Positions 20,399 to 35,204 of a DNA stretch of 36,258 nucleotides are shown one piece after another. Each line of letters opens with the position of its first letter. The stretch's first letter is position 1. The DNA is from Candidatus Zixiibacteriota bacterium (GTDB lineage: Bacteria; Zixibacteria; MSB-5A5; GN15; JAAZOE01), in assembly GCA_030668485.1 (NCBI GenBank), contig DAOUTW010000046.1:1-36258 (forward strand), written 5' to 3'. The notes under the pieces are model-generated. The model made no database searches. It was not told the DNA's origin and saw nothing but the letters and a program-made list of their open reading frames with translations. Position numbers and translations under genes: made by a program.

Positions 20399-20476
20399 GG
20401 GCAGTTAGCTCAGTTTGGTTAGAGCACCTGCCTTACACGCAGGGGGTCACTGGTTCGAGTCCAGTACTGCCCACCA
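20399..20476 (+). tRNA. tRNA-Val (TAC)
   Basis: A complete cloverleaf. The 5' acceptor strand GGGCAGT pairs with ACTGCCC, the anticodon loop CTTACAC gives TAC, GGTTCGAGTCC forms the T-arm, and A73 and CCA are encoded. Confidence 0.97.
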
Positions 20477-20575: not shown

Positions 20576-20653
20576 GGGGTTGTAGTTCAGTTTGGTTAGA
20601 ACGCCTGCCTGTCACGCAGGAGGTCGCGAGTTCGAGTCTCGTCAACCCCGCCA
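20576..20653 (+). tRNA. tRNA-Asp (GTC), integration target
   Basis: Acceptor strands GGGGTTG and CAACCCC pair, the anticodon loop CTGTCAC gives GTC, discriminator G73 and CCA are encoded. Its 3' part is duplicated exactly at 33719-33772, so this gene is the attachment site used by the 13-kb element. The gene stays intact after integration. Confidence 0.97.
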
Positions 20654-20655
20654 TT
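20602..20655 (+). repeat. attL: 54-bp direct repeat in tRNA-Asp
   Basis: From the anticodon stem through CCA plus TT, this is identical to 33719-33772. The bases outside differ at both ends (A/T before, A/G after). The integrase gene begins 98 bases downstream, as usual for tRNA-targeting tyrosine recombinases. Confidence 0.93.
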
Positions 20656-20700
20656 ATTCAGGCGCAAGCCGCCATCCCCCAACGACATTCAACGATCCAG

Positions 20701-20743
20701 CCAGTGCTTGAGCGCAGTTTTCAACGCTCGAAAACAGCACTGG
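20701..20743 (+). promoter_or_regulatory. Hairpin covering the integrase ribosome-binding site
   Basis: CCAGTGCT (20701-20708) pairs with AGCACTGG (20736-20743), and GAGCG/CGCTC can pair inside. The 3' arm overlaps the first bases of the GGAGG (20742-20746) that serves GTG 20753, so folding could restrain integrase translation. CAGCACTGG recurs at 33624 near attR, so it may instead be a recombinase arm site. Confidence 0.45.
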
Positions 20744-20752
20744 AGGTCTCCT

Positions 20753-21688
20753 GTGAGCATCACGACGTTCAAGCAATTACTGAACTATGCCGATCAGATT
20801 AATATGGGCAACACTACAACGACCACAATCGAGAGCTTCTATTTCCGCTGTCGTTTGATTGGCTGTACCGCCAAAACGCAGGCCGTTTACGCCGAACGCC
20901 TGAGCTACCTGTTGCGGTATGCGGAGTCAATCGACAGGAAACTGGAAGAGTTGACCAAGCACGACTTACAGCGGTACATCAACACTTTGATCGACACCGT
21001 AAGTCCAGTTACGATCAACGGGCGCATCCAAGTCTACCGAGTCTTTTACGGCCACCTGCTGAAAGAGGGCTTCGTTGAGACCGATCCCATGGTCGGCATC
21101 GACAAGGTGAAACAACCGCACACTTTGAAGCGTGTGATTACTCCGGAAGAGTTGAGCAGGATTTTGGACCAAATCAATAAGCGGACTTTCATCGGCACTA
21201 GGGACCGTGCGATTATCCTGTTGACCTTTGACGCCATGCTAAGACTTTCGGAGTTGCTGTCGATCAAAACGTCGCAACTGGATTTGCGGTCTGGGGTGAT
21301 CCACGTGGTAGGGAAGGGTCGAAAAGAGAGATTTGTGGCCTTTTCACCTACGACCGCACAACTTCTCCATACTTATGTGACACGGTTCCGTGCGAAAGTC
21401 CCAGGAGACTTGCTGTTCTGTACCCGGCAGGGTGGGCCAATCGGCCACCGCTACGCCCAAAGGATTTTCAGCAACCCAGCCCGCAAGATCGGGCTACATC
21501 TACACCCACATCTGGCGAGACACTCCGGAGCGACGGCATTTGTCCGTGCCGGTGGTCCGTTGTCCGTGCTGCAGCGTGCGCTTGGCCATTCGACCTTGCG
21601 GGTGACGGAGCGGTACATCCACGTAGACGACACTGATTTGCACAACGCCTATGAGCAATTCGCACCAGCGGCAGACGTAAGAGTGTGA
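20753..21688 (+). CDS. Tyrosine recombinase (integrase)
   Basis: Catalyses site-specific integration and excision at tRNA-Asp. The 311-residue XerC/D-like protein has an N-terminal SAM-like core-binding domain (about 22-110) and a C-terminal catalytic domain. All catalytic residues are visible: Arg164 (AMLRLSELL), Lys188 (VVGKGRKER), His253 and Arg256 (HPHLARHSGA), His279 (LGHST) and the nucleophile Tyr288 (TERYIHV). GTG 20753 is chosen because GGAGG lies 6 bases upstream; the frame can be extended to TTG 20708, but that runs through the hairpin. It sits next to attL and is the only recombinase in the element. Confidence 0.93.
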   Translation: MSITTFKQLLNYADQINMGNTTTTTIESFYFRCRLIGCTAKTQAVYAERLSYLLRYAESIDRKLEELTKHDLQRYINTLIDTVSPVTINGRIQVYRVFYGHLLKEGFVETDPMVGIDKVKQPHTLKRVITPEELSRILDQINKRTFIGTRDRAIILLTFDAMLRLSELLSIKTSQLDLRSGVIHVVGKGRKERFVAFSPTTAQLLHTYVTRFRAKVPGDLLFCTRQGGPIGHRYAQRIFSNPARKIGLHLHPHLARHSGATAFVRAGGPLSVLQRALGHSTLRVTERYIHVDDTDLHNAYEQFAPAADVRV

Positions 21689-21733
21689 GTGATCGGTTCA
21701 GCCCTGTCGATCAGCGATTCGCACATCGCATCA

Positions 21734-22042
21734 CTATAGTCCAATTGGTGGTCTCCTATCCGGAAACTCAACAGGGATGGTAAACCGCACGCGGCTGACC
21801 GACTCACTCGCGGACTCCGTTTGGCCGTCTACGCCAAGCTTGAGAATACCAGCGATGGCAATACCGGCACCAGCACCCCCCGACACGCCTTCCGAGACTG
21901 TAACAGCTACATCAAACTCGATTGACTGCAACTGTCCCATCTGGCAAACGTTATACTCTTTCGCACTAATTTGCCCTTGTGCGGTCACAACCCCATCAAC
22001 GATCTGCTGGATCGTCTGAGCTACGAACTCTTTCAATTCCAC
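21734..22042 (-). CDS. Small protein with Gly/Ala-rich centre (unknown family)
   Basis: A 102-residue protein: an amphipathic helix (MELKEFVAQTIQQIVDGVV), then strands with IEFDVAVTVSEG, a Gly/Ala/Ile-rich segment (GGAGAGIAIAGILKLGVDG) and a closing VSRVRFTIPVEFP strand. I recall similar small proteins with EFDVAVT...SRIKFSVP patterns across bacteria, some near signalling or defence genes, but no function is settled. The GTG start has AGGAGG eight bases upstream. It is convergent with the integrase and divergent from the methylase. A role in the element's regulation or defence is only a guess. Confidence 0.65.
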   Translation of the reverse strand: MELKEFVAQTIQQIVDGVVTAQGQISAKEYNVCQMGQLQSIEFDVAVTVSEGVSGGAGAGIAIAGILKLGVDGQTESASESVSRVRFTIPVEFPDRRPPIGL

Positions 22043-22213
22043 GGGTAAGCCTCCTCGTTAAACCTTGAACTGCTCCCAACATCGCAAACCCAGCAGGCCG
22101 TGTCAAGTCGTAAATCGTGGGTAGCTATTAGTCACATATTAAAGAGAAGCATTGACAGAGATACCTCGACCTTGTTTTTTAGGGTAAACGAGTCTAAATG
22201 AAAGGTCGCAACC

Positions 22214-23068
22214 GTGCAACTATCGCTTTTACCCCGTACTCGACCAAAAGGGCAACTCCTTAAGTGGGTTGGAAATAAGTACAAGTACGCCCACACCATC
22301 ACTGCCTATTTCCCAGATGACTATCGTCGCTACTATGAGCCTTTCCTCGGCATCGGGACTATACTCGCCACGCTCGCGCCGGAAAAAGCAATTGCCGGTG
22401 ATATTAATACAGAGCTTATTGAATTTTGGAAGTTAGTTCAGACTGATTCCGATTCACTTGAATCGTACTATAGAGACACAATTGAACGATTCAACAAGAA
22501 CCGGCAGGTGGTGTACAATGAAATCAAGGCTAAGTATAATGCGAACCCAAACCCATACGACTTAATGATAATCAGTCGCACCTGTTATGGTGGTGTGATG
22601 CGCTTCACACGCGAGGGCAGCATCAGCACGCCAATCGGCCCACACAAGCCAATCGCTCCGGAGACGTTTGAGGCTCGCCTGTATGAGTGGCAGAAGCGCG
22701 TCCAATATACTAGGTTTGTCAACCAGTCGTTCAGCAAAACAATGAAGTCGGCAGGAGAAGGTGATATCGTCTATTGCGATCCACCGTACATTGACACACA
22801 GGCGATTCTCTATGGCGCACAGGATTTCAGTTTCTCCGAGCTAGTCGAGATGATCGCAGAATGTAAGAGTAACGGGGCCAAGGTCGCACTTTCCATCGAC
22901 GGGACGAAGAAGTCCGGAACGAAGCGCATTCCGGTTGATTGGCCGAAGAGTCTCTTCGAGCGCGAAGTCCTCCTGGATTGTGGCAGTTCGATGTTACGTC
23001 GATTTCAGAACGGTGGTAGTGCGATGGTCGGCGAGGGCGTACACGACAGGCTGCTACTCACGTGGTAG
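22214..23068 (+). CDS. DNA adenine methylase, D12/Dam class
   Basis: A 284-residue N6-adenine methyltransferase that would protect target sites with S-adenosylmethionine. Motifs in alpha-class order are KWVGNK (17-22), EPFLGIGT (42-49, SAM binding), AGDIN and the catalytic DPPY (189-192). The target sequence cannot be read from the protein. It starts at GTG 22214. Its stop is followed directly by the convergent endonuclease-like gene (no gap), so the two probably form a restriction-modification pair. GATC maintenance is possible but less likely for a MTase paired with a nuclease. Confidence 0.92.
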   Translation: MQLSLLPRTRPKGQLLKWVGNKYKYAHTITAYFPDDYRRYYEPFLGIGTILATLAPEKAIAGDINTELIEFWKLVQTDSDSLESYYRDTIERFNKNRQVVYNEIKAKYNANPNPYDLMIISRTCYGGVMRFTREGSISTPIGPHKPIAPETFEARLYEWQKRVQYTRFVNQSFSKTMKSAGEGDIVYCDPPYIDTQAILYGAQDFSFSELVEMIAECKSNGAKVALSIDGTKKSGTKRIPVDWPKSLFEREVLLDCGSSMLRRFQNGGSAMVGEGVHDRLLLTW

Positions 23069-23884
23069 CTATTTCGGCCACTTACTCACGATGTCCGGCC
23101 ATCGATCGACAACCTCGCGTCCGAAGATGACCTCATCCACGAGGCCCATGTGCGTAGCATCGACCAAGCGGCAAAGGTATGATCGACCGCAATCCCACCA
23201 CGTGTAATGGTCATCCACGAGTAGATAGTGCCCAACGCGTCGTTCCGCGAGATTCTTCGCCTCGTTAATCTCGTAGCCATCCAGCAGCGTCTCATACACA
23301 CCATCGGCTACACGACTCCCAAACGACGTCGTGCCGTAATATTCTTTGATCTCCCAGACGACATGTGGGTTATCAGGGCTTGGATAGGCTCCATCGATTT
23401 GCCGCGACATCGTTGCCACGAGATGGCCTTTATCATTTTTTATCGTAGTTAGCTGACGCGGATTATCAGCAAAGCTCGTCCCGTCAAGTGTGGCCTCGGT
23501 AAGTGTGTTGATAATACAAGTAAAATATGCATGGTGGCGCATTGTTCCCTTTTGCTTATTGAGAGGCAGGTGGCATTGGGGCTTGTGCTTAGCCTTTAGC
23601 TTCTCGAAAAGGGCCTTAGCCTGATCGCGATCCATCAGCAGAGACTCGACTTGTTCTTCGAGCATAGCCGCTCGACAGTTGAGATAGTCAGTCACACGTT
23701 TCACTACCTCGTTGGCAGTGCCTAGGGTCTTCGCAACATTCGCAACCTCACCCTGTGTGTAGCGGCGCAAGGTCTTTGGCAGTCCCTTACCCACTCGTTT
23801 GGAGTATCCGAGTTGCTCAGAAGCGTACCGCACGAGTGCCCAGAAAGCGGGCGTCTCGTTGACGAATTCTGGATTTGGTTTCAT
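23069..23884 (-). CDS. Predicted PD-(D/E)xK restriction endonuclease
   Basis: A 271-residue soluble protein, tail-to-tail with the D12 methylase. The first half is helical and basic. The second half holds a likely PD-(D/E)xK site: Asp164 in RQIDGAY, then Glu178-Ile-Lys180 in VVWEIKEYYG, spaced as in type II nucleases. That motif and the methylase neighbour are the basis for the call; I do not recognise the family. ATG 23884 is chosen over the longer frame to 23953. A TATACT -10 element on the minus strand lies at 23892-23897 with TGGACT 17 bases before it, which would give a leaderless message. Confidence 0.72.
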   Translation of the reverse strand: MKPNPEFVNETPAFWALVRYASEQLGYSKRVGKGLPKTLRRYTQGEVANVAKTLGTANEVVKRVTDYLNCRAAMLEEQVESLLMDRDQAKALFEKLKAKHKPQCHLPLNKQKGTMRHHAYFTCIINTLTEATLDGTSFADNPRQLTTIKNDKGHLVATMSRQIDGAYPSPDNPHVVWEIKEYYGTTSFGSRVADGVYETLLDGYEINEAKNLAERRVGHYLLVDDHYTWWDCGRSYLCRLVDATHMGLVDEVIFGREVVDRWPDIVSKWPK

Positions 23885-24178
23885 GTGGCATAGTATAACA
23901 CGCCAAGTCGTCTGAGTCCACCACAAAAATCTAAATTGTGATTGACACGGCACGGTTGCCGCTTAGTGGTGTGCGATTTGCCTTTGGCTGCGTTTGATAG
24001 CAACATTAAGAGCTACGAGCAATTCAGCCCGGCAGCGATAATAAGAATTTGATCCCCTGTTTTGGCAATTCAGGCTAATAGGGATATTTGCATCTTGATT
24101 CACTGACATTTTATCATTACATTTATCACTGACATTTGCTAAATTCGAATGGGGCATAATGTGTGATAGGAGACGACG
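23885..24178. promoter_or_regulatory. Shared upstream region of two divergent endonuclease genes
   Basis: The region contains the minus-strand promoter at 23892-23920, TTGTGATTGACACG (23936-23949, repeated at 26013-26026), and a 12-base direct repeat TCACTGACATTT at 24100-24111 and 24126-24137 before the plus-strand gene. It ends with AGGAG before GTG 24179. No open frame of substance lies here. Confidence 0.5.
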
Positions 24179-24766
24179 GTGAAACGAAAAATTAAGATCA
24201 AGAATGCTGAATTGGTCAATCTGCTGGGTGGTAGTGCTGGCTCTTTCCCAAAATACACAACCCAGATCATTAATCTCGCAAACCAAAATGCGCAGGGCAC
24301 GCGGGCAAAAGTAGTGGGCCAAATGAGTGAGCTTATTCAGGAGTTTCCGGGAAAGACCTTGGACGAATGGATAGCTTGGTATAGTCTGAAGCACCCCGAT
24401 TCCATAGATCGTGCGACAGAGCTTACGTATGCGGCACTACAGAATCTTGCCGAGGCCATTCAACTTGTTGATAAGCCAATGGTGCGGGAGTGGGTGAAAG
24501 ATTTAGTTCACCAAAAGACATTCGCTGGTCTGAAATTCCAAGAGGCGATATTGAAGAGGATAGCCGAGCTATTGGATACCAGCTACAGGCTTTCCACACC
24601 GGAAGAAGAATCAAAAGGCATCGACGGATTCATTGGTGACAAGCCGGTATCGATAAAGGCGGCGACTTACAAATCGAAAACTACCACTGCACAAGAGAAA
24701 TTGCAGGGGGCGATGATCTACTACGATAAGAAGAAGGACGGGCTTTCAGTCGAGTTCGATCTCTAA
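24179..24766 (+). CDS. MjaI-family type II restriction endonuclease
   Basis: A 195-residue nuclease matching what I remember of the MjaI family (RE_MjaI): INLANQNAQGTRAKVVGQMS near 31-50, the WVKDLVHQKTFAGLKFQEAI block, and the active-site region ESKGIDGFIGDKPVSIK (144-160) with Asp149 and Ser158-Ile-Lys160. MjaI cuts CTAG. The same target is probable here but not shown. The gene starts at GTG 24179 (AGGAG 6 bases before) and ends 11 bases from the convergent methylase. N-terminal length is a little short but the core is complete. Confidence 0.85.
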   Translation: MKRKIKIKNAELVNLLGGSAGSFPKYTTQIINLANQNAQGTRAKVVGQMSELIQEFPGKTLDEWIAWYSLKHPDSIDRATELTYAALQNLAEAIQLVDKPMVREWVKDLVHQKTFAGLKFQEAILKRIAELLDTSYRLSTPEEESKGIDGFIGDKPVSIKAATYKSKTTTAQEKLQGAMIYYDKKKDGLSVEFDL

Positions 24767-24777
24767 GATAGTTGATC

Positions 24778-25920
24778 TTAGAAGTCCAGCCGTATTTGCC
24801 CCCCTGTGACTGTGCGCTTTGATTGCTTCACCGCTTCAGACACATTCGACATCGCTTGAATGTTGCATGTAGTTATCTGCTTATAGTTTGCCTCGAAGGT
24901 GTTGGCTGCGGTTCGGCGGATGTCTTCGATGTTGCAAAGCACAATCCCACATTCCTGCCGACTAACACACCCCGCTCCCAGACTCTCGATCATGAACTTA
25001 GGCGGCTTTCCGTCGACAATGCGGCTCTCGATGTGTCTGATGTGCTGATCCAACCGCGAAGCGATGTATTCGTTTGCACTACTCTTCAAAGCGGACACTC
25101 GCTCCTCAATGATCTGTCTGAAACTCGCGTCAATCTCAAAGCCGATGCTGTTTCGTTCCGAGGCGAGGGCCGCACATAAAGTTGTGCCAGTGCCGAGGAA
25201 TGGGTCGAGCACTATATCCCCCTTGACAGAGAACATGTTGACTATCCGATAGGCCAATTCAAACGGAAAGGCGGCACTACGCGCTCGGAGTTTAGTGCGA
25301 TTCAACCCTTGACGCACGCCCCTCAGGTCGAGCCACACATCGGAAAACCACTGATTGCGCTCTTCCCAGAAATATGCGCTCTCGCGTCGGAGCTGCTTTA
25401 GCTCTTTGCTGGCGAACTGCCGCTTGCTACCCTTCCGGAAAATCAGTATGTATTCATGCTCAAGTGTAACGTAGGCCCCCGGTGGCAACATGCCGGAACC
25501 CATAAATTTATTAGGCGCATTGGTGCTCTTGCGCCAAATGATGTTTGGGAGATTCTGAAATCCTAAACTGACTAACTTGCTAATAACCCGTGAATGAGAA
25601 GAATGTAGCTGGAACACCCCATCTAACGTACGCGCAGCATCACCAATGTTGACACAAACGATTCCGCCAGTTTTTACTACCCGTTCAAGTTCCTGCCATA
25701 CTTCATCAAGTTGGGTGTGCATCAGTTCGAAAGCCACAGCCCCCTCATTGGCTTGAAGGGCTGTGTTCACTCTCTCATCAGCCCGACAGAAGTCGGCGTC
25801 CCACATCTCGATCATCGGGTAAGGTGGGGATGTGACTACTAGGTCAACCGATGAATCGGGGACGTTTAATAACTTGGTGGCCGAAGCGTAGACCATTTTG
25901 TGCGTAGTATTCCGAGACAA
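24778..25920 (-). CDS. DNA methyltransferase, probable N4-cytosine type (MjaI partner)
   Basis: A 380-residue beta-class methyltransferase. The catalytic motif TSPPY (30-34) comes before the SAM-binding motif DPFLGTGTT (239-247). TSPPY is usual for N4-cytosine enzymes, and M.MjaI is of that kind. A C-terminal extension of about 110 residues may contribute to target recognition. It is convergent with the MjaI-like nuclease, so the pair likely forms a CTAG-type system. TTG 25920 has GAAGGA at good spacing; ATG 25896 (MVYASATKLL) is an alternative without one. Confidence 0.88.
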   Translation of the reverse strand: MSRNTTHKMVYASATKLLNVPDSSVDLVVTSPPYPMIEMWDADFCRADERVNTALQANEGAVAFELMHTQLDEVWQELERVVKTGGIVCVNIGDAARTLDGVFQLHSSHSRVISKLVSLGFQNLPNIIWRKSTNAPNKFMGSGMLPPGAYVTLEHEYILIFRKGSKRQFASKELKQLRRESAYFWEERNQWFSDVWLDLRGVRQGLNRTKLRARSAAFPFELAYRIVNMFSVKGDIVLDPFLGTGTTLCAALASERNSIGFEIDASFRQIIEERVSALKSSANEYIASRLDQHIRHIESRIVDGKPPKFMIESLGAGCVSRQECGIVLCNIEDIRRTAANTFEANYKQITTCNIQAMSNVSEAVKQSKRTVTGGQIRLDF

Positions 25921-26227
25921 CTTTGCATTCCTTCAGAATCGTCAAATTAACTGTCTGTGTCATATCCATAAAAAAATACACGAGGCCTCCCAGCGCAAGA
26001 CTTCTTTTTAATTTGTGATTGACACGAAAGTGTGTGAAATTGGGAGACTTCAAGATGTGTAAGCAATTACAGATCGACCTCACGAAAGGCCACGGGAGGT
26101 GTTCGAGGTGTTCTGGATGCCCCAGAGGACGTCTAGACGGCCTTGAGGCCAACCGTCGCGCTTCCTTGGGCATCGACGGTATACGTCCGTAGGCCCAGAC
26201 GGCCTATCTAGACGGCCTCCGGATGCC
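25921..26227. repeat. MTase upstream region with AGACGGCCT repeats
   Basis: No gene seen. TTGTGATTGACACG is at 26013-26026. TCTAGACGGCCT occurs at 26132-26143 and 26207-26218, and CAGACGGCCT at 26196-26205. Each 12-base copy contains CTAG, the presumed target of the neighbouring restriction system. Confidence 0.45.
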
Positions 26228-26374
26228 TTAAGGCGTGGTCAACAGGCCGTCCAACTCTTCGGTGATCTTGGTCAACTCGTCGTGTTGGCTGCTGGTGCCA
26301 AATTTGGGGCTAGCGAGCAACGCACGGAGGCGTTTCACCACCTGCTCGATCTTTTTCCACTCGTCGATGGTCAT
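26228..26374 (-). CDS. 48-residue helical protein coupled to the HTH gene
   Basis: ATG 26374 overlaps the stop of the upstream HTH gene by 4 bases (ATGA), a strong sign of a real, translationally coupled gene. The 48-residue product begins MTIDEWKKIEQVVKRLRALL and has a second amphipathic helix (HDELTKITEELDGLL), so it is probably a helical hairpin. It may bind the HTH protein or DNA. No family recognised. Confidence 0.7.
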   Translation of the reverse strand: MTIDEWKKIEQVVKRLRALLASPKFGTSSQHDELTKITEELDGLLTTP

Positions 26375-26712
26375 GACTTATCCTTACTGGCTTTCTTGCT
26401 GGACTTCGCTTTCGGTTTGGCCTTGCTGGTCTTTTTAGCGGCGGGTTTGGCCTTGGCTCGTTTCACTTTGGCCTTAGCCACGGCAGCAGCCACGACTTTC
26501 TGATTATCTCGCTTTAATCGAGTCACGGCGTCGGCGCAGCCTGCGGCCATCTTTCCATAGTCCTGCCACTTGGTTTCGATCGACAGGCCCAGCCTGTGAA
26601 CGAGTTTGTAAAACGCGGGAGTTGACAGGCCAAGGGCGATGGCGGCTTTTCGACGGCTGCCCTCTTTTTTGATTAGCTTCTCTAGGGCTTGTTTGGTTTC
26701 GGGAATCTTCAT
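26371..26712 (-). CDS. HTH DNA-binding protein with histone-H1-like tail
   Basis: A 113-residue protein. Residues 8-45 form a Fis-like helix-turn-helix (LIKKEGSRRKAAIALGLS, then FYKLVHRLGLSI). From about residue 75 the chain is almost only Lys, Ala, Ser and Pro (AKAKPAAKKTSKAKPKAKSS), as in histone H1-like bacterial proteins. The head would read DNA and the tail would bind it without sequence preference, giving a nucleoid-type or silencing regulator. AAAGGAG precedes ATG 26712, 31 bases after the acidic protein's stop. The tail is low complexity, so homology there proves little. Confidence 0.7.
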   Translation of the reverse strand: MKIPETKQALEKLIKKEGSRRKAAIALGLSTPAFYKLVHRLGLSIETKWQDYGKMAAGCADAVTRLKRDNQKVVAAAVAKAKVKRAKAKPAAKKTSKAKPKAKSSKKASKDKS

Positions 26713-26743
26713 GGCTTACTCCTTTGATTGGTTCGGTTAACGG

Positions 26744-27031
26744 TTAGGCGTCGTCTTCGGGGTATTCTTCACTGAGCCACTGGTCCAAGGGCTTGGCTTC
26801 GATTTCGGCCAGCTCGTCGTCGGTCAGCTCGTCCTCTCTGGCCATCAGCCTGTCGATCTCGCTCTTGTCAAAGCCAAGGTCTCGGAGGGCCACGCGGGCA
26901 CCTCTGGCGGTGGACTGGTGAAGAGCGGCCTTGGCCTGTAGGAGGTCAAGGATCGCGCTCTCGTCGGCTTCTTGCCCTGCCCAACGGAGGGCGTCGGCGG
27001 CGGCTTTGGCCAGCTTGCTTAGATTCGACAT
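26744..27031 (-). CDS. Acidic helical protein of unknown function
   Basis: A 95-residue protein: an Ala-rich helix (LAKAAADALRWAGQEADESA), a middle helix containing ARVALRDLGFDKSEIDRLM, and a strongly acidic end (DELTDDELAEIEAKPLD, then EEYPEDDA). The charge is opposite to that of the next gene's Lys-rich tail, so the two products might interact; that is inference. AGGAG lies 8 bases before ATG 27031. First gene of a three-gene set running to 26228. No family recognised. Confidence 0.65.
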   Translation of the reverse strand: MSNLSKLAKAAADALRWAGQEADESAILDLLQAKAALHQSTARGARVALRDLGFDKSEIDRLMAREDELTDDELAEIEAKPLDQWLSEEYPEDDA

Positions 27032-27520
27032 CGGGTCTCTCCTCTCGGTTTGGTCTCTCTCTCATCTACTAGGGGAATTGCACACGACGTGCCAAACGAT
27101 ATTGTAGCCTTCTGCATATATGAACATGGAGTCATAGTACCACGAAGCCCCGTGGGACGGGTTTTCGAAGGGGTATGTGTCCGGGAAGACACATTGTACC
27201 GGGGCGTACATTGTGCAAGCCCTATACCAGAAATATTGCAAGCTGCACGAATTCGTGCAGGGTGCAATGCGAAGCTTAGGGTGAGAGACCTATAGTGCGA
27301 GTCCTATATAGGACTTATCCAATATAGTCACCGGCAGGGGAACCGACCACCCTGCCGGTGATTGTGGAGCGGCCTGAGAAGAGAGGCGGCTCCGGTGGGC
27401 AGCAACGCTCGCAACTCACTGCGTTGCTGCGGAATTTTAGACTGTGCGACGCTGGTGTTATTGTCGGACTACCAACATCGCAACAGCCCACGGACACAAG
27501 TGTGTGGCCGTTCCCAATCT
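27032..27520. promoter_or_regulatory. Palindrome-rich control region
   Basis: No credible gene. It holds CTGCACGAATTCGTGCAG (27243-27260), AGTCCTATATAGGACT (27300-27315) and a 12-bp stem TCACCGGCAGGG/CCCTGCCGGTGA (27328-27339 and 27350-27361). It also has a GTGTC.GACAC stem and two ACATTGT copies near 27190-27215. The first two are probable operators for the minus-strand operon. The third could end the gene at 27521 or act in an RNA leader. Confidence 0.55.
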
Positions 27521-28390
27521 TTATGCGCCACTGGTGTCCGCATGGTCGCCTTCTCTACCACCTCTTTTCGGGCCAGGGCCACTCTGATTGTCGGCGGGTT
27601 CGCCGCCGTGCGTGTCGCTGTCCTTGACGAGCTGCCAGTTGCCATCATCCCCCTGTTGGATCGTGATCTTTGCGCCTTTTTCTGGCACGGCATCAGGATG
27701 GACTTGTACAGTGGCGTCGTTATCGAACACCACGTAGACGCCAGCATGGGAGCCATTCACACTGACGACGGTGACTTCAACGGGGGGAGCCTTAACAACA
27801 GCTTGCTGCGGCTGTACTATAGCGTCAATGGATAGATCCCCCTGCTTCGCATCGGCAATAAAACAACGGTAGATGTCCACACCATTGCAACTTGACTTCA
27901 CCACACCACGCATGCCGACCACAGGATCGGGCAGTAAGCGAGTTCCACCATCCGGCTGGGCCTGTTCAACGCGGTTAACCTCGACTTCACCGGTTTGATT
28001 TGGCGCATACGGGTGCGTTATGTCAAAGCGAATGGTTACACGGCGACTTACGGAATTGGTGGCAGTGATCTGAGCGACGAGATCCGGCTCCGCTTTGAGA
28101 CGTGCGGCAGTACGCTCCTCTCTGTCGAGTTTGGCTCTCGTCTGATCGTACTCCATCTGTTCGACTCCACCCATCTTGCTGCGCTTGACCTTCTCCATGC
28201 GGATGTGGTACTGCTCATCAGTTTCATCGGGTTGCCGGTCCAACGTGCGAGCTTGTTCTCTGTCGGCTCTGGCTTGCTGGTCGGCCTCACTAATCTCCTC
28301 CGAAGTCTCTCTCTTACCGGATTGGCCGCGCACTTGGCCCATCGCATCTTTTTCAATGCGGTTTGGATCATTCGGGTATCGGTCTTTCAT
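27521..28390 (-). CDS. Element protein of unknown function (coiled coil plus beta domain)
   Basis: A 289-residue protein. The first 95 residues are very polar and helical (EEISEADQQARADREQARTL, then RMEKVKRSKMGGVEQMEYDQ), a likely coiled coil. The centre (about 105-245) is strand-rich with VTIRFDITHPY, GVDIYRCFIADAKQG and VEVTVVSVNGSHAGVYVVFD, resembling small beta-barrel repeats. The tail is Gly/Asp-rich and disordered. GAAGGAG precedes the ATG, directly after a CGCACGAAATCGTGCG palindrome. I do not recognise the family. Location in the replication/accessory operon is the only clue. Confidence 0.65.
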   Translation of the reverse strand: MKDRYPNDPNRIEKDAMGQVRGQSGKRETSEEISEADQQARADREQARTLDRQPDETDEQYHIRMEKVKRSKMGGVEQMEYDQTRAKLDREERTAARLKAEPDLVAQITATNSVSRRVTIRFDITHPYAPNQTGEVEVNRVEQAQPDGGTRLLPDPVVGMRGVVKSSCNGVDIYRCFIADAKQGDLSIDAIVQPQQAVVKAPPVEVTVVSVNGSHAGVYVVFDNDATVQVHPDAVPEKGAKITIQQGDDGNWQLVKDSDTHGGEPADNQSGPGPKRGGREGDHADTSGA

Positions 28391-28404
28391 AGAAGTAACT
28401 CCTT

Positions 28405-28420
28405 CGCACGAAATCGTGCG
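28405..28420. promoter_or_regulatory. Palindrome upstream of the 28390 gene
   Basis: CGCACGAAATCGTGCG differs by one base in its inner 14 from the palindrome at 27245-27258. It lies right against the ribosome-binding site of the 28390 gene, so a bound protein or RNA fold could restrain it. Confidence 0.5.
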
Positions 28421-28481
28421 GTTTTATGTTAAAGTCTCGTTTCGTTTTCTTTGACGACGCTCTTCTCGCCGCCTATAGCGG

Positions 28482-28790
28482 TTACTCATCACTGCTGCTT
28501 CCTTTTGGGTCAACCGGGATGCCAATCAGCAGCTTGGCTCTGTTCAGCATCTTTTGAACCGGAAGGATTTTCATCCATTCGTTGTAAGTTCGGGCCTGTC
28601 GCACCCACGGCACGACTTTGACCAGCAGGAGGGTGCCCCGCTTGAAGATTCGCCACAGCTTGTTGCGTTTAACCTCGTCGGCCTCGTTGCTTATGGCCAC
28701 CGCCATATTGGCCCGTCGGGTGACCATATCGATCACGTCTTTATCGGTCTTCAACCGTGGCTTCCAGATTTGCCAACTGCGCCGACTCAT
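28482..28790 (-). CDS. Basic element protein of unknown function
   Basis: A 102-residue, Lys/Arg/Trp-rich protein (MSRRSWQIWKPRLKTDKDV, then WRIFKRGTLLLVKVVPWVRQ) with one amphipathic or weakly hydrophobic stretch near 55-70. ATG 28790 overlaps the upstream stop codon by 4 bases (ATGA), which sets the start and shows coupling. It may bind nucleic acid or a membrane surface. No family recognised. Confidence 0.65.
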   Translation of the reverse strand: MSRRSWQIWKPRLKTDKDVIDMVTRRANMAVAISNEADEVKRNKLWRIFKRGTLLLVKVVPWVRQARTYNEWMKILPVQKMLNRAKLLIGIPVDPKGSSSDE

Positions 28791-29521
28791 GATCGCCACC
28801 CGCCTTTCGGTGGGATGTCGTGGCGATCCGGCGGTTCGGGATCACCGTCCGGCGTCGGGCTTGGGGCGTCCGGCATATTCAGCAGGGGAAAGTTATCCTC
28901 ATCATCCGGTCGTTTGGGGATGAGTGTGGCCTCGTCGGAAGTCTTACCCTCGTTTTGCACCTTGGCGTCAAGTACGCTTTGTGCGGCGTCGATCAGCTGT
29001 TTCAATTCGAGTTGGCAGAGGACCGACAGATTGAGCTTATGGAGACCACCTATCTCACTGCGGAAGGTCATTAACATCTCTTCTACCAAAGCAGCGTCGA
29101 GTTTAACGTTTTTCGGATTGGATAACATGGTGCGTCCGTCGGCTGCTCCACTCGCACGGCGCAAATCGTTGAATGCTTCCAACGCTTTAAGCTTGATGCC
29201 GTCGCTTGCACCGCTGTCCTTGATGATGCTGGCCACGAAATCGAGCTGCCCATCGGCGGTCTCTAGATCGAAGTCGAGCGGTTTCTTGCTTCCTGTCGGC
29301 TTTCCTTTGTTTGTGGCTGCGCCCTTCGTCAATCGTGTCATCTTCTTGCGAAAGGCACCAAGCGATCCCGGATATTTGCCGACTTCCGGACCGCGCTCGT
29401 AGTTGTCGTCACTCGATAGCATGCGGTGGATGTCATTCACTGACTTACCCAACGTGACCTGTTGAAGCGCGAATCGCTCTTGCTCCGATGTGAGATTATT
29501 CCTGTCATCTTTTTTGATCAT
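28787..29521 (-). CDS. Element protein of unknown function, possible DNA-packaging or regulatory role
   Basis: A 244-residue protein. The N-terminus (LTSEQERFALQQVTLGKSVN and following) resembles the small-terminase or HTH openings that begin with SEQE.F.....G.S, but that is a weak likeness. A Lys-rich linker and a helical middle (about 75-185) follow, and the end is Pro/Asp-rich and disordered (DAPSPTPDGDPEPPDR). It overlaps the end of the replication gene by 17 bases, so the two are coupled. GAGGT precedes the start; GTG 29524 is an alternative. Confidence 0.6.
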   Translation of the reverse strand: MIKKDDRNNLTSEQERFALQQVTLGKSVNDIHRMLSSDDNYERGPEVGKYPGSLGAFRKKMTRLTKGAATNKGKPTGSKKPLDFDLETADGQLDFVASIIKDSGASDGIKLKALEAFNDLRRASGAADGRTMLSNPKNVKLDAALVEEMLMTFRSEIGGLHKLNLSVLCQLELKQLIDAAQSVLDAKVQNEGKTSDEATLIPKRPDDEDNFPLLNMPDAPSPTPDGDPEPPDRHDIPPKGGWRS

Positions 29522-31598
29522 CACTACCTCTTTCTTTCTTTATGAGATCGGTTGCATCGGCAGCCTGTGGCAGCGTCCATGGATCACCTGTGCGGTCGAT
29601 ATTAATCTGGCTAGCAGCACGGTAAAACGTGCCCTCCGAAAACCAGTCTTCTTTTGCCGCTTTACTGCGGACTTCGGCCTTTGGCACGCTTCCGTTGCCC
29701 GTTTTCATTAACTCGCGCAGCCATGCTTTCGCACGCTCGATTTTCGTCTCCTCGCTTTTGACACCCATAGAGGCAGGTCCAACTTCGATGAATCGCTGCA
29801 AGCCGAGGTCGAAAGTCACCCACAGGTCCGGTTGTGTCCATCGTCCCTCGTAGCACAGCTTGCGCTCCTTGTCGGCTTTCCTACCTTGCAGGTGCACCAT
29901 CATGTCAACAGCAGCTTCAAATCCCGACTGGCCTCGTACGCCTCGATTCTCGCCTTTGCCCTCATGCCCCAGCAAGGCCACGGCGATGCCCAGCGGATCG
30001 GCAATCTCCGACTTTAGCAACTGCAGCGCGGCGTGTGCCTCTTCGTTGTCCGATGACTGCAGCCGCTTTTTGCCCTTGTATCCGAGGCAGTTCGTTAGGT
30101 AGGTTGCGAGACTGTCAATGTAGATGCCGTCGAGATGGTGTATGAAGACGGCGTTTTCAATCGCATCCTTCAGGTCGTTAAACGACGTGGGGTTGTAAGG
30201 CATAATGTGAAAGCGGTCCATCGTGTGGCCAGCAGTCATGCCCATTGTCAAGAATCGCTTCTTGATGTCACCGTCTGACTCTTCCATCGAGATCAGTCCC
30301 ACCTTGAAACCACAATTAATCGCATTGATGCCGTCCGTTGCTGCAAGAGTGCTTTTCCCGTGCTTCGCTTTGCAGTAGGGGAGAGTCACACGACGGCGGA
30401 AGAGCAACCACGAGAGCTGGTCCTCCTTTTCGTCGATCGATTCATCCAGCAGCAAGTCTGAGGCGGTCACCCACAACTTGCGCTTGGTCGTGTCGTCCTC
30501 AGTGTGCTGTATCTGGTCAAGGAGCCGCAGCGCGGCGTAAGCCTTGCCGACATTAGTAGCGAAGCCTTCCGTAATCTTCCGTATGGCGAGATCGGCCAAT
30601 TCGCTACGGGGGGTAACCGTTGTCTTCCCACGCCTTGCTGCGTGTGACGGTTTCGCCTTTGCCGCGCCGAGTGCCGCTTTCAATGACGGCCACTTCTCCG
30701 GACCAGCAGGGTGGTGCTTAACCTCATAGACGTGTGCTACCAGCTCTGTGATCGTCTTATCGTTGAGATCACTGCCGGTCTCCTTAAACGGGTTGGCCAC
30801 GTAGAGCCGGTTGGCATCACACATCTTACTGAATGTTTCTTCTTTGATGTAACCGCACTGCCGGAACTTGGCGCACAGATTCAGCAGCTCAAATTCCCGT
30901 CTACCATCCTTAATCGGGTGGTCTTTGTAGTAGGCCAGCAGGGTAGTGAGTTCCGTACGGTCCAGATTCGTGTAGTCTTTCTGCTCTGGAACCACTTCAT
31001 AACCGGTGGGTACACTCCTCTTGCCGGTGGGTGCCGCACTCTTGGGTACGATCAAGGCTTCCGGGGGAAACGTGAACGGCCTACCGGTCAACACCGCCAA
31101 GCGGAATCGTGGGTAGCCACTCGTAGGTTTGCCACTGTCGAACTCGCAGCATGGAAACAATGGCTGCGATACTTTGAAAACCTGCTCGTCCGCGTCGGGG
31201 TACTCTGCTTTGAGCCAGTCGCAGATCGGCTCAAATGCGGTCTTATCCGTTATCGGCTGCGCGAGTGCTAGGAGCACCCGAATCTTCGGTTGTTCGTCGC
31301 TGTCGCTACTGCTGGTGTAAACGACGCCAGCGTAGTCCTTGAACTGTGCGACTCGCTCCTCGAACGTCTTAGGCGATTCATCGAAGTCAAACGGCACCAC
31401 CAACAGAGCGGTCGTGTTAGCAGCCTTGCGAGGGCCAGAGTACCGCCATGCGCTGTGAATCCGGCTGGTAAAGAACTCACACAGCGCAACTTCATCCTGC
31501 AGGGCAAGCTCGACCGGTTCTGGCTCAAACGCCGTAACCTTCCGACATATTGTCTTGTCGCTGTAGTTGCCAGCCGCAGCCTGTAGTGCGATCTTCAT
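29505..31598 (-). CDS. Replication protein: primase-like domain fused to RepA-type ATPase
   Basis: A 697-residue, two-part replication protein. The N-terminal third looks like an archaeo-eukaryotic-type primase: DFD at 71-73 in VVPFDFDES and a KIRVLLALAQPIT strand, though the usual His is not evident. A helical linker follows. The C-terminal part is a RecA/RepA-like ATPase: Walker A CKAKHGKST (409-417), Walker B GIYIDS (491-496), and LLGHEGKGENRGVRGQSGF (about 542-560). The first Gly of Walker A is Cys, while Gly414-Lys415-Ser/Thr are intact. It would prime and unwind the element's DNA. Its ATG overlaps the upstream stop (TAATG). Confidence 0.75.
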   Translation of the reverse strand: MKIALQAAAGNYSDKTICRKVTAFEPEPVELALQDEVALCEFFTSRIHSAWRYSGPRKAANTTALLVVPFDFDESPKTFEERVAQFKDYAGVVYTSSSDSDEQPKIRVLLALAQPITDKTAFEPICDWLKAEYPDADEQVFKVSQPLFPCCEFDSGKPTSGYPRFRLAVLTGRPFTFPPEALIVPKSAAPTGKRSVPTGYEVVPEQKDYTNLDRTELTTLLAYYKDHPIKDGRREFELLNLCAKFRQCGYIKEETFSKMCDANRLYVANPFKETGSDLNDKTITELVAHVYEVKHHPAGPEKWPSLKAALGAAKAKPSHAARRGKTTVTPRSELADLAIRKITEGFATNVGKAYAALRLLDQIQHTEDDTTKRKLWVTASDLLLDESIDEKEDQLSWLLFRRRVTLPYCKAKHGKSTLAATDGINAINCGFKVGLISMEESDGDIKKRFLTMGMTAGHTMDRFHIMPYNPTSFNDLKDAIENAVFIHHLDGIYIDSLATYLTNCLGYKGKKRLQSSDNEEAHAALQLLKSEIADPLGIAVALLGHEGKGENRGVRGQSGFEAAVDMMVHLQGRKADKERKLCYEGRWTQPDLWVTFDLGLQRFIEVGPASMGVKSEETKIERAKAWLRELMKTGNGSVPKAEVRSKAAKEDWFSEGTFYRAASQINIDRTGDPWTLPQAADATDLIKKERGSDDQKR

Positions 31599-31849
31599 TA
31601 CAAGCCCCTGTAGACTTGGGGTCTGTCTTTGAGGATTTCATCGCACGGCTTTATCGTAGATAGATACTCACAGTACAACGCTAGCACCGTGTAGTTCCAG
31701 CTACAGGTGCGATGCATCATAGTGTCGTACTCTTCCGCCTCCTGTGCTGTCAGCCCACCGCCGATTTTGGCTTCACGAGCAGCACGCCACTTTTGTAGTC
31801 CTTCATGAGCTTCCAGTATCAGCCCACTTCTTGATTTCTTCTTTAGCAT
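31598..31849 (-). CDS. 83-residue protein upstream of the replication gene
   Basis: A basic-start, helical protein (MLKKKSRSGLILEAHEGLQK, then GLTAQEAEEYDTMMHRTCSW) ending in an aromatic helix (YTVLALYCEYLSTIKPCDE). The stop shares a base with the replication gene's ATG, so they are translated together. It could be a replication accessory protein, but no family is recognised. Confidence 0.65.
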   Translation of the reverse strand: MLKKKSRSGLILEAHEGLQKWRAAREAKIGGGLTAQEAEEYDTMMHRTCSWNYTVLALYCEYLSTIKPCDEILKDRPQVYRGL

Positions 31850-31900
31850 AACCGAACCTCTTTTTGTTTTGAGTGTGATTTTGTAGTGATCAGCTCAGCT

Positions 31901-32068
31901 TCACACGTCGTCTGGGTATCCTTTGTTGAGGATCTTCTTGAGCGTGTTAAGCGAGATGCATAGATCGACCGCCAGCGCACGTTGGCTGATGGTGGTGTCA
32001 CGGTAGCGTTTGCGGATTTCCGCACGCTGTTTGGTGTTAAATTTCGGAAAAGCGGTAGGGCTTACCAT
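31901..32068 (-). CDS. 55-residue helix-turn-helix protein
   Basis: A gene too short for a 60-residue cutoff. AAGGAGG lies 6 bases before ATG 32068. The product (starting MVSPTAFPKFNTKQRAEIRK) carries a homeodomain-like HTH: KQRAEIRKRYRDTTISQRAL, then VDLCISLNTLKKILNKGY. The pattern QRAEIR..Y....S...LA...IS..T...IL is that of small HTH regulators and excisionases. It is the first gene of the replication operon, right beside the repeat region, so it may bind those repeats and control replication or excision. Confidence 0.8.
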   Translation of the reverse strand: MVSPTAFPKFNTKQRAEIRKRYRDTTISQRALAVDLCISLNTLKKILNKGYPDDV

Positions 32069-32159
32069 AGCAAGCCTCCTTAAGTTAGGGTTGTAAGTCT
32101 CGTTTTAATGGACCGGATGTAAAAAGCCGTAGCCCGTATGAGCCACGGCGTGTTCCAAG

Positions 32160-32475
32160 GTTTAGACGTAAGCAAAGCAGCGAGTGGACCACAGCGAGTT
32201 GATGCTCCCTAGGTCTGGGCATGGCCGCTCTACATGTTTAGACGTAAACAACGCCGCGAGTGGGAAACAGCGAGCTGATGCTCCCTAGGTCTGGGCATAG
32301 CCGTTCATAGGTTTAGCCGTAAGCAACGCCGCAAGTGGGACACAACGAGCTGGTGCTGGCCGTCTACAGTTTAGCCGTAAGCAAAGCAGCAAGTGGACCA
32401 CAGCAAGCTGGTGCCGGGCGTACTCCTACATGTTTAGTCACAAGAGACGCAGCGAGTGGGTCACAGCAAGCCAAA
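32160..32475. repeat. Five degenerate tandem repeats (iteron-like)
   Basis: Units begin at 32160, 32236, 32311, 32369 and 32432 with GTTTAG.CGTAA (the last diverges). Each contains a GC(A/C)(A/G)C(A/G)AGTGG core, three to five bases, then CA(G/A)C(G/A)AG(C/T)TG(A/G)TGC. Unit lengths are 76, 75, 58 and 63 bases plus a shorter last copy. Units 1 and 2 also share CTCCCTAGGTCTGGGCAT. The GTGG...CAC centre is kept in four of five units. Confidence 0.85.
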
Positions 32476-32476
32476 A

Positions 32477-32523
32477 CTGTTCAAAGGCTGAACAGGCGTG
32501 TGACCTGTTCAAGGCTTGAACAG
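32477..32523. repeat. Twin 19-bp palindromes
   Basis: CTGTTCAAAGGCTGAACAG (32477-32495) and CTGTTCAAGGCTTGAACAG (32505-32523) are near-identical palindromes 28 bases apart centre to centre, directly after the tandem repeats. Operator or origin function is inferred. Confidence 0.75.
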
Positions 32524-32876
32524 TGGACGTGCTTGTGGACGTGGGCATGCTTAGCCATGGGTGCGGTTCTCCTCCGCTCCTACCCCCCGTGTGTGTGGCG
32601 GAGGAGACGCCTCTCCTTCTCCTCCTACACCCACAAGGGGGGATGGAGAAACGGAGAAGCGGAGAACGCCCTCTCCTGCTGATGGGCATCTAGGGGGGAC
32701 TTACAGGACGTGCTCGTGGACGTTGACCGTGGATACCGAAACCCACGGTAAGGTAGTCTGAGGAAGTCGATATACGTGGTCAAATACGTAGTCAAGGAAC
32801 TCTGAGAAAGTGCGGCCAGACTGCCCTGCGAGGAAGTGCGACCATCCTGCCGATCTTGGGGTTAATCGGGACCTAC

Positions 32877-33055
32877 ATCGCACGGTAATGTGCGAAGTTC
32901 CCTTCTTGCGGTTAAAGTCCACTTCTTAGAGACGGGACCCATATCGCACAGTAGCGTGTGAAACTTTCTCCGTTAGGGGAGAGTCCACTTCCAAACAGCA
33001 AATCGCACGGCACTCAGCGATTTGCTAAAGTTCCTTTCCACCCTGCCGATAGCCT
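32877..33055 (+). repeat. Three hairpin repeats before the 33084 gene
   Basis: Units start ATCGCAC at 32877, 32943 and 33002. Unit 1 has a perfect TCGCAC/GTGCGA stem; unit 2 has the same stem with one G-T pair; unit 3 pairs AAATCGC with GCGATTT. Units 1 and 2 also share AGTCCACTTC. A fourth copy is at 33413 across the stop of the 33084 gene. Confidence 0.65.
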
Positions 33056-33083
33056 GAGTAAGTCCAATGAAAGGAGCACAACC

Positions 33084-33431
33084 ATGGCAGACAAGAATGA
33101 TCCACGCCCACAAGAAGACCCAAATCGCAATGCGGACTTGTCGGAGCTGGAAATAATGTTTAAAATGGGTTCTACCGACATAACTGCAAATTTGTGGGAT
33201 TGGGGACGTATTCTTCTGGTTGAGTTGGAAGATATCGTCAAAAAGGTGAACAAAGCCATTCAAGACAAAGATATTAACGAATATCTGTGCCAACTTGAAC
33301 ACATATACAACATGGACCGTTTTGTTGAAGGCCCACTTATTGTGCTCGGTAGGTTATCGACTGATGATCCTAATTATATACACCCCCTCATGGGTGACGA
33401 GGATGATGATTCATCGCACACCACTAAGTGA
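33084..33431 (+). CDS. 115-residue acidic protein of unknown function
   Basis: The only plus-strand gene in the right half of the element. ATG 33084 follows AAAGGAG. The first 20 residues are polar (MADKNDPRPQEDPNRNADLS). The core is helical (WDWGRILLVELEDIVKKVNK, then YLCQLEHIYNMDRFVEGPLI), and the tail is very acidic (GDEDDDSSH). Longer in-frame starts read through hairpin repeats and are unlikely. It lies between copies of that repeat, suggesting it is regulated through them. Function unknown. Confidence 0.7.
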   Translation: MADKNDPRPQEDPNRNADLSELEIMFKMGSTDITANLWDWGRILLVELEDIVKKVNKAIQDKDINEYLCQLEHIYNMDRFVEGPLIVLGRLSTDDPNYIHPLMGDEDDDSSHTTK

Positions 33432-33718
33432 TTTGCGGTGTGGCTCCCCCCCTGTCGGAGCATCCTAAAATATACCACTTCATATGGGACTTCAATAGCA
33501 AAGTCCCCCATCTTCATATAACTTCTTGCCGTTGATTTGGCACGTCGCTTGTTTACGCCCCAGCAGTAGGGAAAGTCTTGACAGGCGGCCTCTTATGTGC
33601 TTTATTGGGGTATAGACAATGCCCAGCACTGGTCGGAGTTCGCCTGTTGTCATTGGTGCAACACCTACGATGTGCGGCTTTCTCCTCTGGAGAGTGGGTG
33701 TCGATTGAGCCACGAGTT
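33432..33718. other. Element right end, non-coding
   Basis: No gene seen. GGGACTT (33486-33492) pairs with AAGTCCC (33501-33507), a small stem. TTGACA at 33578-33583 could be a -35 element, but the -10 is poor. CAGCACTGG at 33624-33632 matches the arm at 20735-20743 and could be an integrase arm site. Confidence 0.4.
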
Positions 33719-33772
33719 CGCCTGCCTGTCACGCAGGAGGTCGCGAGTTCGAGTCTCGTCAACCCCGCCATT
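33719..33772 (+). repeat. attR: tRNA-Asp 3' fragment, 54-bp direct repeat
   Basis: Identical to 20602-20655: anticodon stem, T-arm, 3' acceptor strand, CCA and TT. The 5' half of the tRNA is absent, so it is not a working gene. It marks the right end of the integrated element. Confidence 0.93.
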
Positions 33773-33779
33773 GACTTTG

Positions 33780-33806
33780 AAAGCCCGATCACATCGGGCT
33801 TTTTTA
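33780..33806 (+). terminator. Intrinsic terminator, originally of the tRNA-Asp transcript
   Basis: AAAGCCCGAT-CACA-TCGGGCTTTTTTATT is a strong stem with a T-run, a few bases after the tRNA fragment. Before integration it would have followed tRNA-Asp directly. Confidence 0.88.
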
Positions 33807-33872
33807 TTGCATATTCAGATGCCATGTATTCTTTTTCTGAAAAAGAACGACTTCTCTGTCCGGTTTTTTTGA

Positions 33873-34859
33873 CTATTCAATATTCCACAATTCCAGACTA
33901 TCCAATACCATATTTGAGGCAATTGACTGAAAATATGATACTTCTTCCTCAGATATACCTGCAGAATACTCAGTCCCGACTGTGCTCTCCTGGAAAATCG
34001 TAGAATAGATCACGCAAGCCATAAGATACGATCCTTTTAGAGAAGGATGATTCCAATCACTCAGATGTAAATAATGCAGCGGATAATTCTGTTCATACAA
34101 AACCGTGTTCCACGCCCAGCCTACCGGAGAAATGACAAATCCAATGCTGTCGGAGTAATCAAGTGTATTATCATAGATTTTCTGCTGCATCTCAGGATAC
34201 TCGTCGGTCCAGCCGGAAACCCAAATCATTCCATCTTCAAAAGCCCAGGGCAATTCGAAAATTATTTTGGTTGCCTCGCAGTTGGCCTTAATTTTATTTT
34301 TTAGAGTTACTAAGGCGGGATATACCGGATGATAGTCGGGGAAGGAATCAGGATAAGCCATAAGCATACCGCCGCCCTGCAAAACAATATAATCCCAGTT
34401 CCGCTCATTGATTTTTGCTTCGGTAGTAGCCAGAGCTGCGTGATCTTCAAGATAAAGACCGTTTCTCATCTCAGCTTCGATAGTAACCGTCTTGCCCATA
34501 TTTTCTGACAGTTCCCTTACCATTCCGGGAAGATTGTTGTAAGTAAAATAGCTGCTTCCAATGAAAAGAATTTCATTTGGTGTACTATCTATTACCTGAC
34601 AACAGAGTTCAACCGGGGGAGGACCGCCGTTGAAGATAAGATTTACCAAATATACGGCATCCGATATATTTACTATGTCATCTCCATTCGCCTCTCCAGA
34701 GCAAAGCGGATCAGGACTTGGACCGCTTTTAAACACATAATTTATTAAATAAACAACATCGCCCACATTCGTGTTACCATCGCCGTTGGCATCGCCACAT
34801 ATAAAAGCACCGAATGCCAATGTTGGCAAAAATAAACATATTAGAATGATAATTTTCAT
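33873..34859 (-). CDS. Secreted SGNH/GDSL-type hydrolase with two dockerin-like repeats
   Basis: A 328-residue exported protein. A signal peptide covers 1-18. Two calcium-binding dockerin-type repeats follow at about 21-46 and 54-82 (DANGDGNTNVGDVVYLINYV; EANGDDIVNISDAVYLVNLI). The SGNH-type domain (about 96-310) has a nucleophile block FIGSSYFTYNNLP (99-111; Ser102/103), LQGGG at 160-164 where many relatives have Asn, and the catalytic DWNHPS (268-273). It resembles DUF4886-type esterases; the substrate, perhaps a polysaccharide ester, is unknown. GAGGGA precedes ATG 34859; ATG 34874 is less likely. Confidence 0.85.
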   Translation of the reverse strand: MKIIILICLFLPTLAFGAFICGDANGDGNTNVGDVVYLINYVFKSGPSPDPLCSGEANGDDIVNISDAVYLVNLIFNGGPPPVELCCQVIDSTPNEILFIGSSYFTYNNLPGMVRELSENMGKTVTIEAEMRNGLYLEDHAALATTEAKINERNWDYIVLQGGGMLMAYPDSFPDYHPVYPALVTLKNKIKANCEATKIIFELPWAFEDGMIWVSGWTDEYPEMQQKIYDNTLDYSDSIGFVISPVGWAWNTVLYEQNYPLHYLHLSDWNHPSLKGSYLMACVIYSTIFQESTVGTEYSAGISEEEVSYFQSIASNMVLDSLELWNIE

Positions 34860-35204
34860 TCTCCCTCTCAGCATTGTTAGTTATGCTCAATACAAAGTAC
34901 ATTTGGTTTGCGTCGTTATAGTAATCCCATCCTAATTGCTCACATACATTAGTGACTTAGAAAGCATAAATCTTTCAAATTATTAAAGAATTTGTTAAAA
35001 ATATCAATTCTTAAATGACAATTGGTTTTGTTCATTCGTTTACAGTTTTAACACTTGGCTTATATCTTAAAAAGTTGCGGAAGTCGGATACTAATCCCCG
35101 CCATTCTCATATCTGTTAGGCCCTCATCATCTTAGCCGTTCCAGGGATGTCCTGCCTGTGTTCGCCTATGCGGAGTTGATCTCAGCGTTTGATATGCCTA
35201 TATT
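34860..35204. other. AT-rich spacer with a short att-like match
   Basis: No gene seen. CCCCGCCATT at 35096-35105 matches the last ten bases of the tRNA-Asp att site, in the same orientation. It may be the decayed end of an older insertion, or chance. Confidence 0.3.

Follow-up and report, generated by a model that had tools for sequence, protein, structure and literature searches.

A 13.1-kb integrative element with paired restriction-modification systems and a predicted replication operon at a tRNA-Asp gene of Candidatus Zixiibacteriota

Several kinds of small integrative elements are known from tRNA genes. Actinomycete integrative and conjugative elements (AICEs), such as pSAM2, combine an integrase with a replicase and lie at a tRNA site between direct repeats, but they are described from Actinobacteria only (PMC9513070). 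PICMI and other phage satellites bring together an integrase, a regulator, a primase and defence cargo within a small size (PMC10803314), while tycheposons pair a tyrosine recombinase and a tRNA site with cargo made mostly of nutrient genes (PMC10872708). Plasmids and prophages reportedly seldom carry restriction-modification (RM) systems, yet type II systems are found in ICESt1 and other integrative elements, and RM systems can serve as addiction modules (PMC4176335). Elements that carry nothing for transfer other than an origin (oriT) are common, many genomic islands have no visible transfer system, and how these move is an open question (PMC11389934). The locus described here lies on contig DAOUTW010000046.1 of assembly GCA_030668485.1, from Candidatus Zixiibacteriota; positions 1 to 36,258 of its forward strand are called the window below. 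It holds, at a tRNA-Asp gene, an apparently intact integrative element of about 13.1 kb, of a broadly known kind but with orphan core genes: a compact case with few genes and clear borders, from an uncultured phylum.

The element is bounded by a direct repeat of 54 bp which covers the 3' part of tRNA-Asp (20602-20655 and 33719-33772, both on the plus strand). The two copies are identical at 54 of 54 positions and lie 13,117 bp apart. The left copy, attL, belongs to the intact attachment gene, tRNA-Asp (GTC) at 20576-20653 (plus strand; ARAGORN; 71.7 bits in Rfam), preceded at the left end by a tRNA-Val (20399-20476) with which it is syntenic in relatives. The right copy, attR, was found by repeat search and is a 3' fragment of the tRNA. 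ARAGORN does report a "tRNA-Asp" at 33694-33770, but this is the fragment joined to a chance 5' arm, scoring 32 bits in Rfam against 72 for the intact gene, and it is not a gene; the Rfam search returned tRNAs only. Adjoining attL is the gene for a tyrosine recombinase of 311 aa (20753-21688, plus strand; PF00589, 5.2e-35), with a GTG start at 20753 and the ribosome-binding site GGAGG. This integrase has distant paralogues elsewhere in its own genome (29-34% identity), and scans made with its sequence found no close relative. A first-pass annotation of the window had proposed a complete integrative element at 20602-33772, with restriction cargo, its own replication module and neither phage-structural nor conjugation genes, bounded by a perfect repeat with the integrase beside attL. 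The repeat, the family searches and the composition support this, and the borders stand; counting a single att copy, the extent becomes 20656-33772 (13,117 bp), and the right-hand tRNA copy is no gene.

An intrinsic terminator (33776-33809, plus strand) begins 3 bp past attR, and a terminator search found none after the intact tRNA-Asp at attL, which fits an empty site made of tRNA-Asp followed by its terminator. As a control, the downstream DNA (up to 20 kb) of ten relatives was searched for the tRNA 3' stretch; no second copy of at least 13 bp was present, which shows that a repeat like the 54-bp one does not belong to the locus as such. The tetranucleotide profiles of element and flanks correlate at only r = 0.13, the abrupt change coincides with the repeats, and every 2-kb block between 20 and 34 kb has a profile nearer to the element's than to that of the flanks. 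Relative to either flank, the interior DNA is foreign. A rival account is an assembly or binning artefact in which a contig of other origin was attached through the tRNA repeat: assemblers may be misled by a repeat of 54 bp, and in several relatives contig ends fall at or close to tRNA-Asp. However, the contig continues for 20.6 kb to the left and 2.5 kb to the right, both parts are host-like in composition, its left flank is syntenic with relatives, and an artefact of this sort is very improbable.

The reading we consider fairly likely is that of an excisable, site-specific integrative replicon, whose RM cargo would stabilise the element and protect the host, and which would be moved by a helper. 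The opposite view, a decayed prophage or integrative and conjugative element (ICE) that, stripped of its transfer genes, became fixed as a defence island, would agree with the lack of transfer and packaging genes and with presence in one genome only. Against it, the large frames are all intact, the att repeat is without mismatch, and neither pseudogenes nor insertion sequences were seen, all of which indicates that a small element integrated recently and in full; decay is an unlikely account.

What the element lacks narrows its kinship further. Its proteins gave no match to structural or packaging families (Pfam, PHROGs), so that the claimed absence of structural phage genes holds, nor to relaxases, coupling proteins or type IV secretion system families, to an FtsK/SpoIIIE-type TraB translocase, or to the AlpA, Fis (HTH_8), TerS and capsid-remodelling families, apart from a weak HTH_50 hit. 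By these features, a prophage, a relaxase-bearing ICE or integrative mobilizable element, an AICE and a PICMI are excluded. The element shares with AICEs its integrase and replicase, tRNA site and direct repeats, but has no FtsK-like TraB. It also resembles PICMI and other satellites in its small size, integrase, regulator, primase and defence cargo, but among the genes of the PICMI model only the integrase is clearly present: AlpA and Fis are unmatched, and the weakly matched primase belongs to another family than DUF3987/DUF5906. Compared by description only, tycheposons share the tRNA site, the tyrosine recombinase and the presence of cargo, their nutrient genes standing in place of the RM genes seen here. 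ICESt1 and its like share the RM cargo; the element differs in having no conjugation module and two RM systems within 13 kb. An oriT-only element, a satellite of another type and a tycheposon-like element are possible affiliations.

Two of these deserve more attention. As a phage satellite, the element would be induced by a helper phage, replicated by its own replication protein (Rep) and packaged into helper capsids. Size, tRNA site, integrase, primase, small regulators and defence cargo do fit satellites generally (PMC10803314, PMC11389934), and the host has, on a different contig, a phage-like locus in which a portal-like gene neighbours that of a terminase large subunit (L068, G000:C108:10391-11824). 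The 244-aa protein of the replication operon also has a TerS-like helical look. Nevertheless, the TerS, capsid-remodelling, AlpA and Fis families all went unmatched, and a TerS identity of the 244-aa protein found no support: searches of PHROGs, the PDB and phage records, and likewise of viral contigs and the 131 other genomes of the phylum, gave no match, and its fold could not be predicted (predicted local distance difference test, pLDDT, of 42 from AlphaFold2 run without an alignment). We hold a satellite to be a rather doubtful possibility. Conjugative transfer, for a mobilizable element of the iOriT type or an integrated plasmid, would instead proceed from an unrecognised oriT by way of a conjugative element. 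An own Rep and a repeat origin are plasmid-like, the palindromic repeats at 32.48-33.03 kb could hold an oriT, and such oriT-only elements are common (PMC11389934), but there is neither relaxase nor coupling protein among the element's proteins and no VirB4-type ATPase in the host genome; this, too, is a minority prospect. With a terminase/portal locus and no VirB4-type ATPase, the host leans slightly toward a phage as helper, which proves nothing.

The replication operon runs leftward from 32068, all on the minus strand. It opens with a 55-aa helix-turn-helix protein (31901-32068; strong ribosome-binding site AGGAGG; weak repressor match in PHROGs, E = 0.004), followed by an 83-aa protein at the operon start (31598-31849; open frame), Rep (697 aa; 29505-31598), proteins of 244 aa (28787-29521) and 105 aa (28482-28799), both open frames with no match, and a last gene for 289 aa (27521-28390) with neither family match nor relative. 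Rep is predicted to join a primase to a RecA-like ATPase. Primase families match residues ~54-142 and RecA-like helicases ~411-580 (PHROGs 3228, 9765, 256 and 19), all weakly, from 2.4e-6 at best to 3e-3, so that the annotated primase-ATPase is present in divergent form. It aligns locally with the helicase-primase of phage SETP7, and in this alignment its P-loop reads CKAKHGKST. Among the primase motifs DFD is present, but the SxH position reads SSSDSD where SETP7 has TASHTE. With the motif-II histidine replaced, activity of Rep cannot be assumed. Fold prediction was of no help: pLDDT was 39, only C-terminal helices were confident, and the Foldseek matches were meaningless.

Upstream of the operon, about 1 kb (32.07-33.08 kb) holds repeats and no convincing gene. 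Five units of a repeat of ~46 nt, spaced by 58-76 bp (32154-32471), form the origin-like, iteron-like array that had been annotated. Two adjacent 19-bp palindromes of operator-like appearance, CTGTTCAA and TTGAACAG, follow at 32477-32523, and a second repeat set with ATCGCAC..GTGCGA palindromes lies at 32867-33025. The region is thus a plausible, sequence-predicted origin and operator. Its iteron pattern found a single match in viral contigs, discarded as chance, since the RNA-phage contig concerned has no repeat array.

No close kin of the core genes came to light. No relative of Rep appeared elsewhere in its own genome or, at E<=1e-3, in the 131 other phylum genomes or in phage or plasmid records, and pattern scans of viral and genome contigs, which catch close relatives only, found none. 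The 244-aa protein is equally without relatives among the 131 genomes, and scans made with it and with the 289-aa protein gave nothing close. The element is therefore a singleton in the collections searched.

Its cargo is far easier to classify, and the annotation of two RM pairs is confirmed by family matches well above cut-off for both. Pair 1 consists of a D12-class (Dam family) adenine methyltransferase (22214-23068, plus strand; PF02086, 1.4e-31; TIGR00571 above cut-off) and a DUF7690/DUF7687 restriction endonuclease (23069-23884, minus strand; PF24736, 3.6e-76; PADLOC REase_II, 1e-72), whose open frame reaches 23953 with the ATG at 23884 as likely start. The two genes lie tail to tail, their ends adjoining at 23068/23069. 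Within the phylum, DUF7687 occurs in the host and in G028 and G075 only; a D12 partner accompanies it in three of three genomes, and the latter two (loci L064 and L066) have the same tail-to-tail layout at 61-81% identity. This constant pairing supports DUF7687 as a restriction partner. Pair 2, likewise tail to tail, is a type II system of the MjaI kind, with a PF09568 endonuclease (24179-24766, plus strand; 4.6e-62) and an adjacent N4/N6 methyltransferase (24778-25920, minus strand; PF01555, 1.4e-40; PADLOC, 3.6e-139). It shares both the endonuclease family and the tail-to-tail methyltransferase with the known MjaI system, which recognises CTAG. Endonucleases of this family occur in 20 of the 132 phylum genomes and in no other member of the host's family. 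Six such loci were examined, each with a related methyltransferase nearby, but these are only 32-35% identical to the element's enzyme, and specificity for CTAG in pair 2 is a prediction. CTAG avoidance was tried as proof of it and rejected: counts are 0.59 of expectation in the element and 0.24 in the flanks, and with the stronger depletion outside they are uninformative.

An 18-nt motif, TAAWTTGTGATTGACACG, occurs twice in the window, in the same orientation (23932-23949 and 26009-26026), each time upstream of a minus-strand RM gene, namely the pair-1 endonuclease and the pair-2 methyltransferase. Shared control of both systems is possible; the motif is absent near the pair-1 homologues at L064 and L066.

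How, then, does the site look in relatives? In G001, G003 and G004 of the same family, as in many genomes of the order, the O-antigen-ligase gene and the 75-aa gene found here also precede a tRNA-Val/tRNA-Asp pair, and the contig of G002 ends inside tRNA-Asp. The tRNA locus is conserved chromosome, but the DNA behind tRNA-Asp differs in each relative, so that a fixed chromosomal region is refuted. No relative showed the two flanks joined as an empty site, which the first-pass annotation had suggested looking for; only the left flank is syntenic. The right flank encodes a Dockerin-type repeat protein with DUF4886 and a UDG-family protein (33873-34874 and 35205-35837); the latter is ~90% identical over 111 residues to a G004 protein at another locus. 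It was tried as a marker of the empty site and dropped, the G004 copy sitting on an unrelated contig.

In place of an empty site, tRNA-Asp proved to be a recurrent hotspot for unrelated elements, including other replicon-like or defence-bearing ones. The clearest is in G010, of the same order (L039), where the gene abutting tRNA-Asp encodes a serine recombinase, and behind it come a primase-helicase of 680 aa (PriCT_1, AAA_25) and a type I RM system (HsdM, HsdS). It shares with our element the tRNA site, the adjacent site-specific recombinase, the primase-helicase and the RM cargo, but differs in its recombinase class, its RM type, the lack of a second att copy within 20 kb and a Rep that cannot be aligned, BLASTP finding no relation. 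G010 thus repeats the combination of integration, replication and restriction genes, but from unrelated components. Elsewhere at tRNA-Asp, G007 (L036) encodes a rolling-circle Rep along with a serine recombinase. The tyrosine integrase of G013 shares 25% identity with the element's and is accompanied by a HerA-type ATPase and, by eye, by protein kinase, phosphatase and VWA-like genes. A QueC-domain protein occurs together with a tyrosine recombinase in G018 (L044) and, by eye, in G020 (L041), and a serine recombinase was seen by eye in both of these. The serine recombinase genes of L039 and L036 (confirmed by Pfam) and of L044 and L041 (by eye) all end against the tRNA-Asp 3' end, forming their own group of tRNA-Asp elements. 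Hairpins downstream in G007, G010, G018 and probably G001 were not counted as conserved tRNA terminators, because the three that were translated overlap recombinase C-termini. In G011, tRNA-Val and the intact tRNA-Asp are separated by a 28-nt 5' fragment of tRNA-Asp (L008:1356-1383), which may be the scar of an old insertion.

Put together, these data suggest the following course for the integrative replicon. Recombination between the circular form and the tRNA-Asp 3' part would be the work of the tyrosine integrase; through the identity over 54 bp, a complete tRNA would be restored at attL and a fragment left at attR, as the anatomy indicates. Restoration of the tRNA at one att end, with a fragment at the other, is well established for this integrase class. 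Once excised, the 13.1-kb circle could use the repeats at 32.15-33.0 kb as its origin and be replicated by the primase-ATPase Rep, which would be expressed from the leftward operon under the control of the small helix-turn-helix proteins. The two type II RM systems may restrict competing DNA and, from what is known of RM biology, make loss of the element costly to its host. Since no transfer gene is recognisable, movement between cells would probably require a helper, either a phage or a conjugative element, or the uptake of free DNA. Some observations speak against this scheme: no excisionase was identified among the element's genes, the matches of Rep are weak with an unusual P-loop and primase motif II, the right flank is syntenic in no relative, which leaves the empty site virtual, and, no relative with the same element having been found, the borders rest on a single assembly.

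A bolder proposal is that small integrative elements able to replicate themselves form a new family here, marked by the orphan Rep and its operon and with paired restriction systems as a maintenance device, in a lineage whose tRNA-Asp gene repeatedly gains independent elements that combine recombinase, replicase and restriction. It is put forward tentatively. The annotated idea of a class in this lineage does not hold in the sense of common genes, the element being a singleton, but survives in that the architecture recurs at tRNA-Asp. Unrelated recombinases and replicases at the same tRNA of distant relatives, in one case joined by restriction genes as here, hint at selection for the combination and not at common descent. 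The defined junctions permit excision to be tested on sequencing reads.

The remaining genes are small. Between the integrase and pair 1 is a 102-aa protein with a weak Trypco2-like match (21734-22042, minus strand; PF19631, E = 1.1e-4, just short of the cut-off), and near attR an acidic protein of 115 aa (33084-33431, plus strand; ribosome-binding site AGGAG) has no family match. On the minus strand beyond pair 2 are a 48-aa open reading frame with no family match (26228-26374), a 113-aa protein with a weak helix-turn-helix and a lysine-rich tail (26371-26712; PF18024, E = 0.005, below cut-off), predicted to be a regulator or a nucleoid-type protein, and an acidic protein of 95 aa (26744-27031; open frame). 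Non-coding DNA at 26080-26230, between the methyltransferase and these small genes, contains repeated AGACGGCCT units, and a near-perfect palindrome of 34 nt around CTGCACGAATTCGTGCAG (27235-27268) lies inside a 490-bp gap of the operon region.

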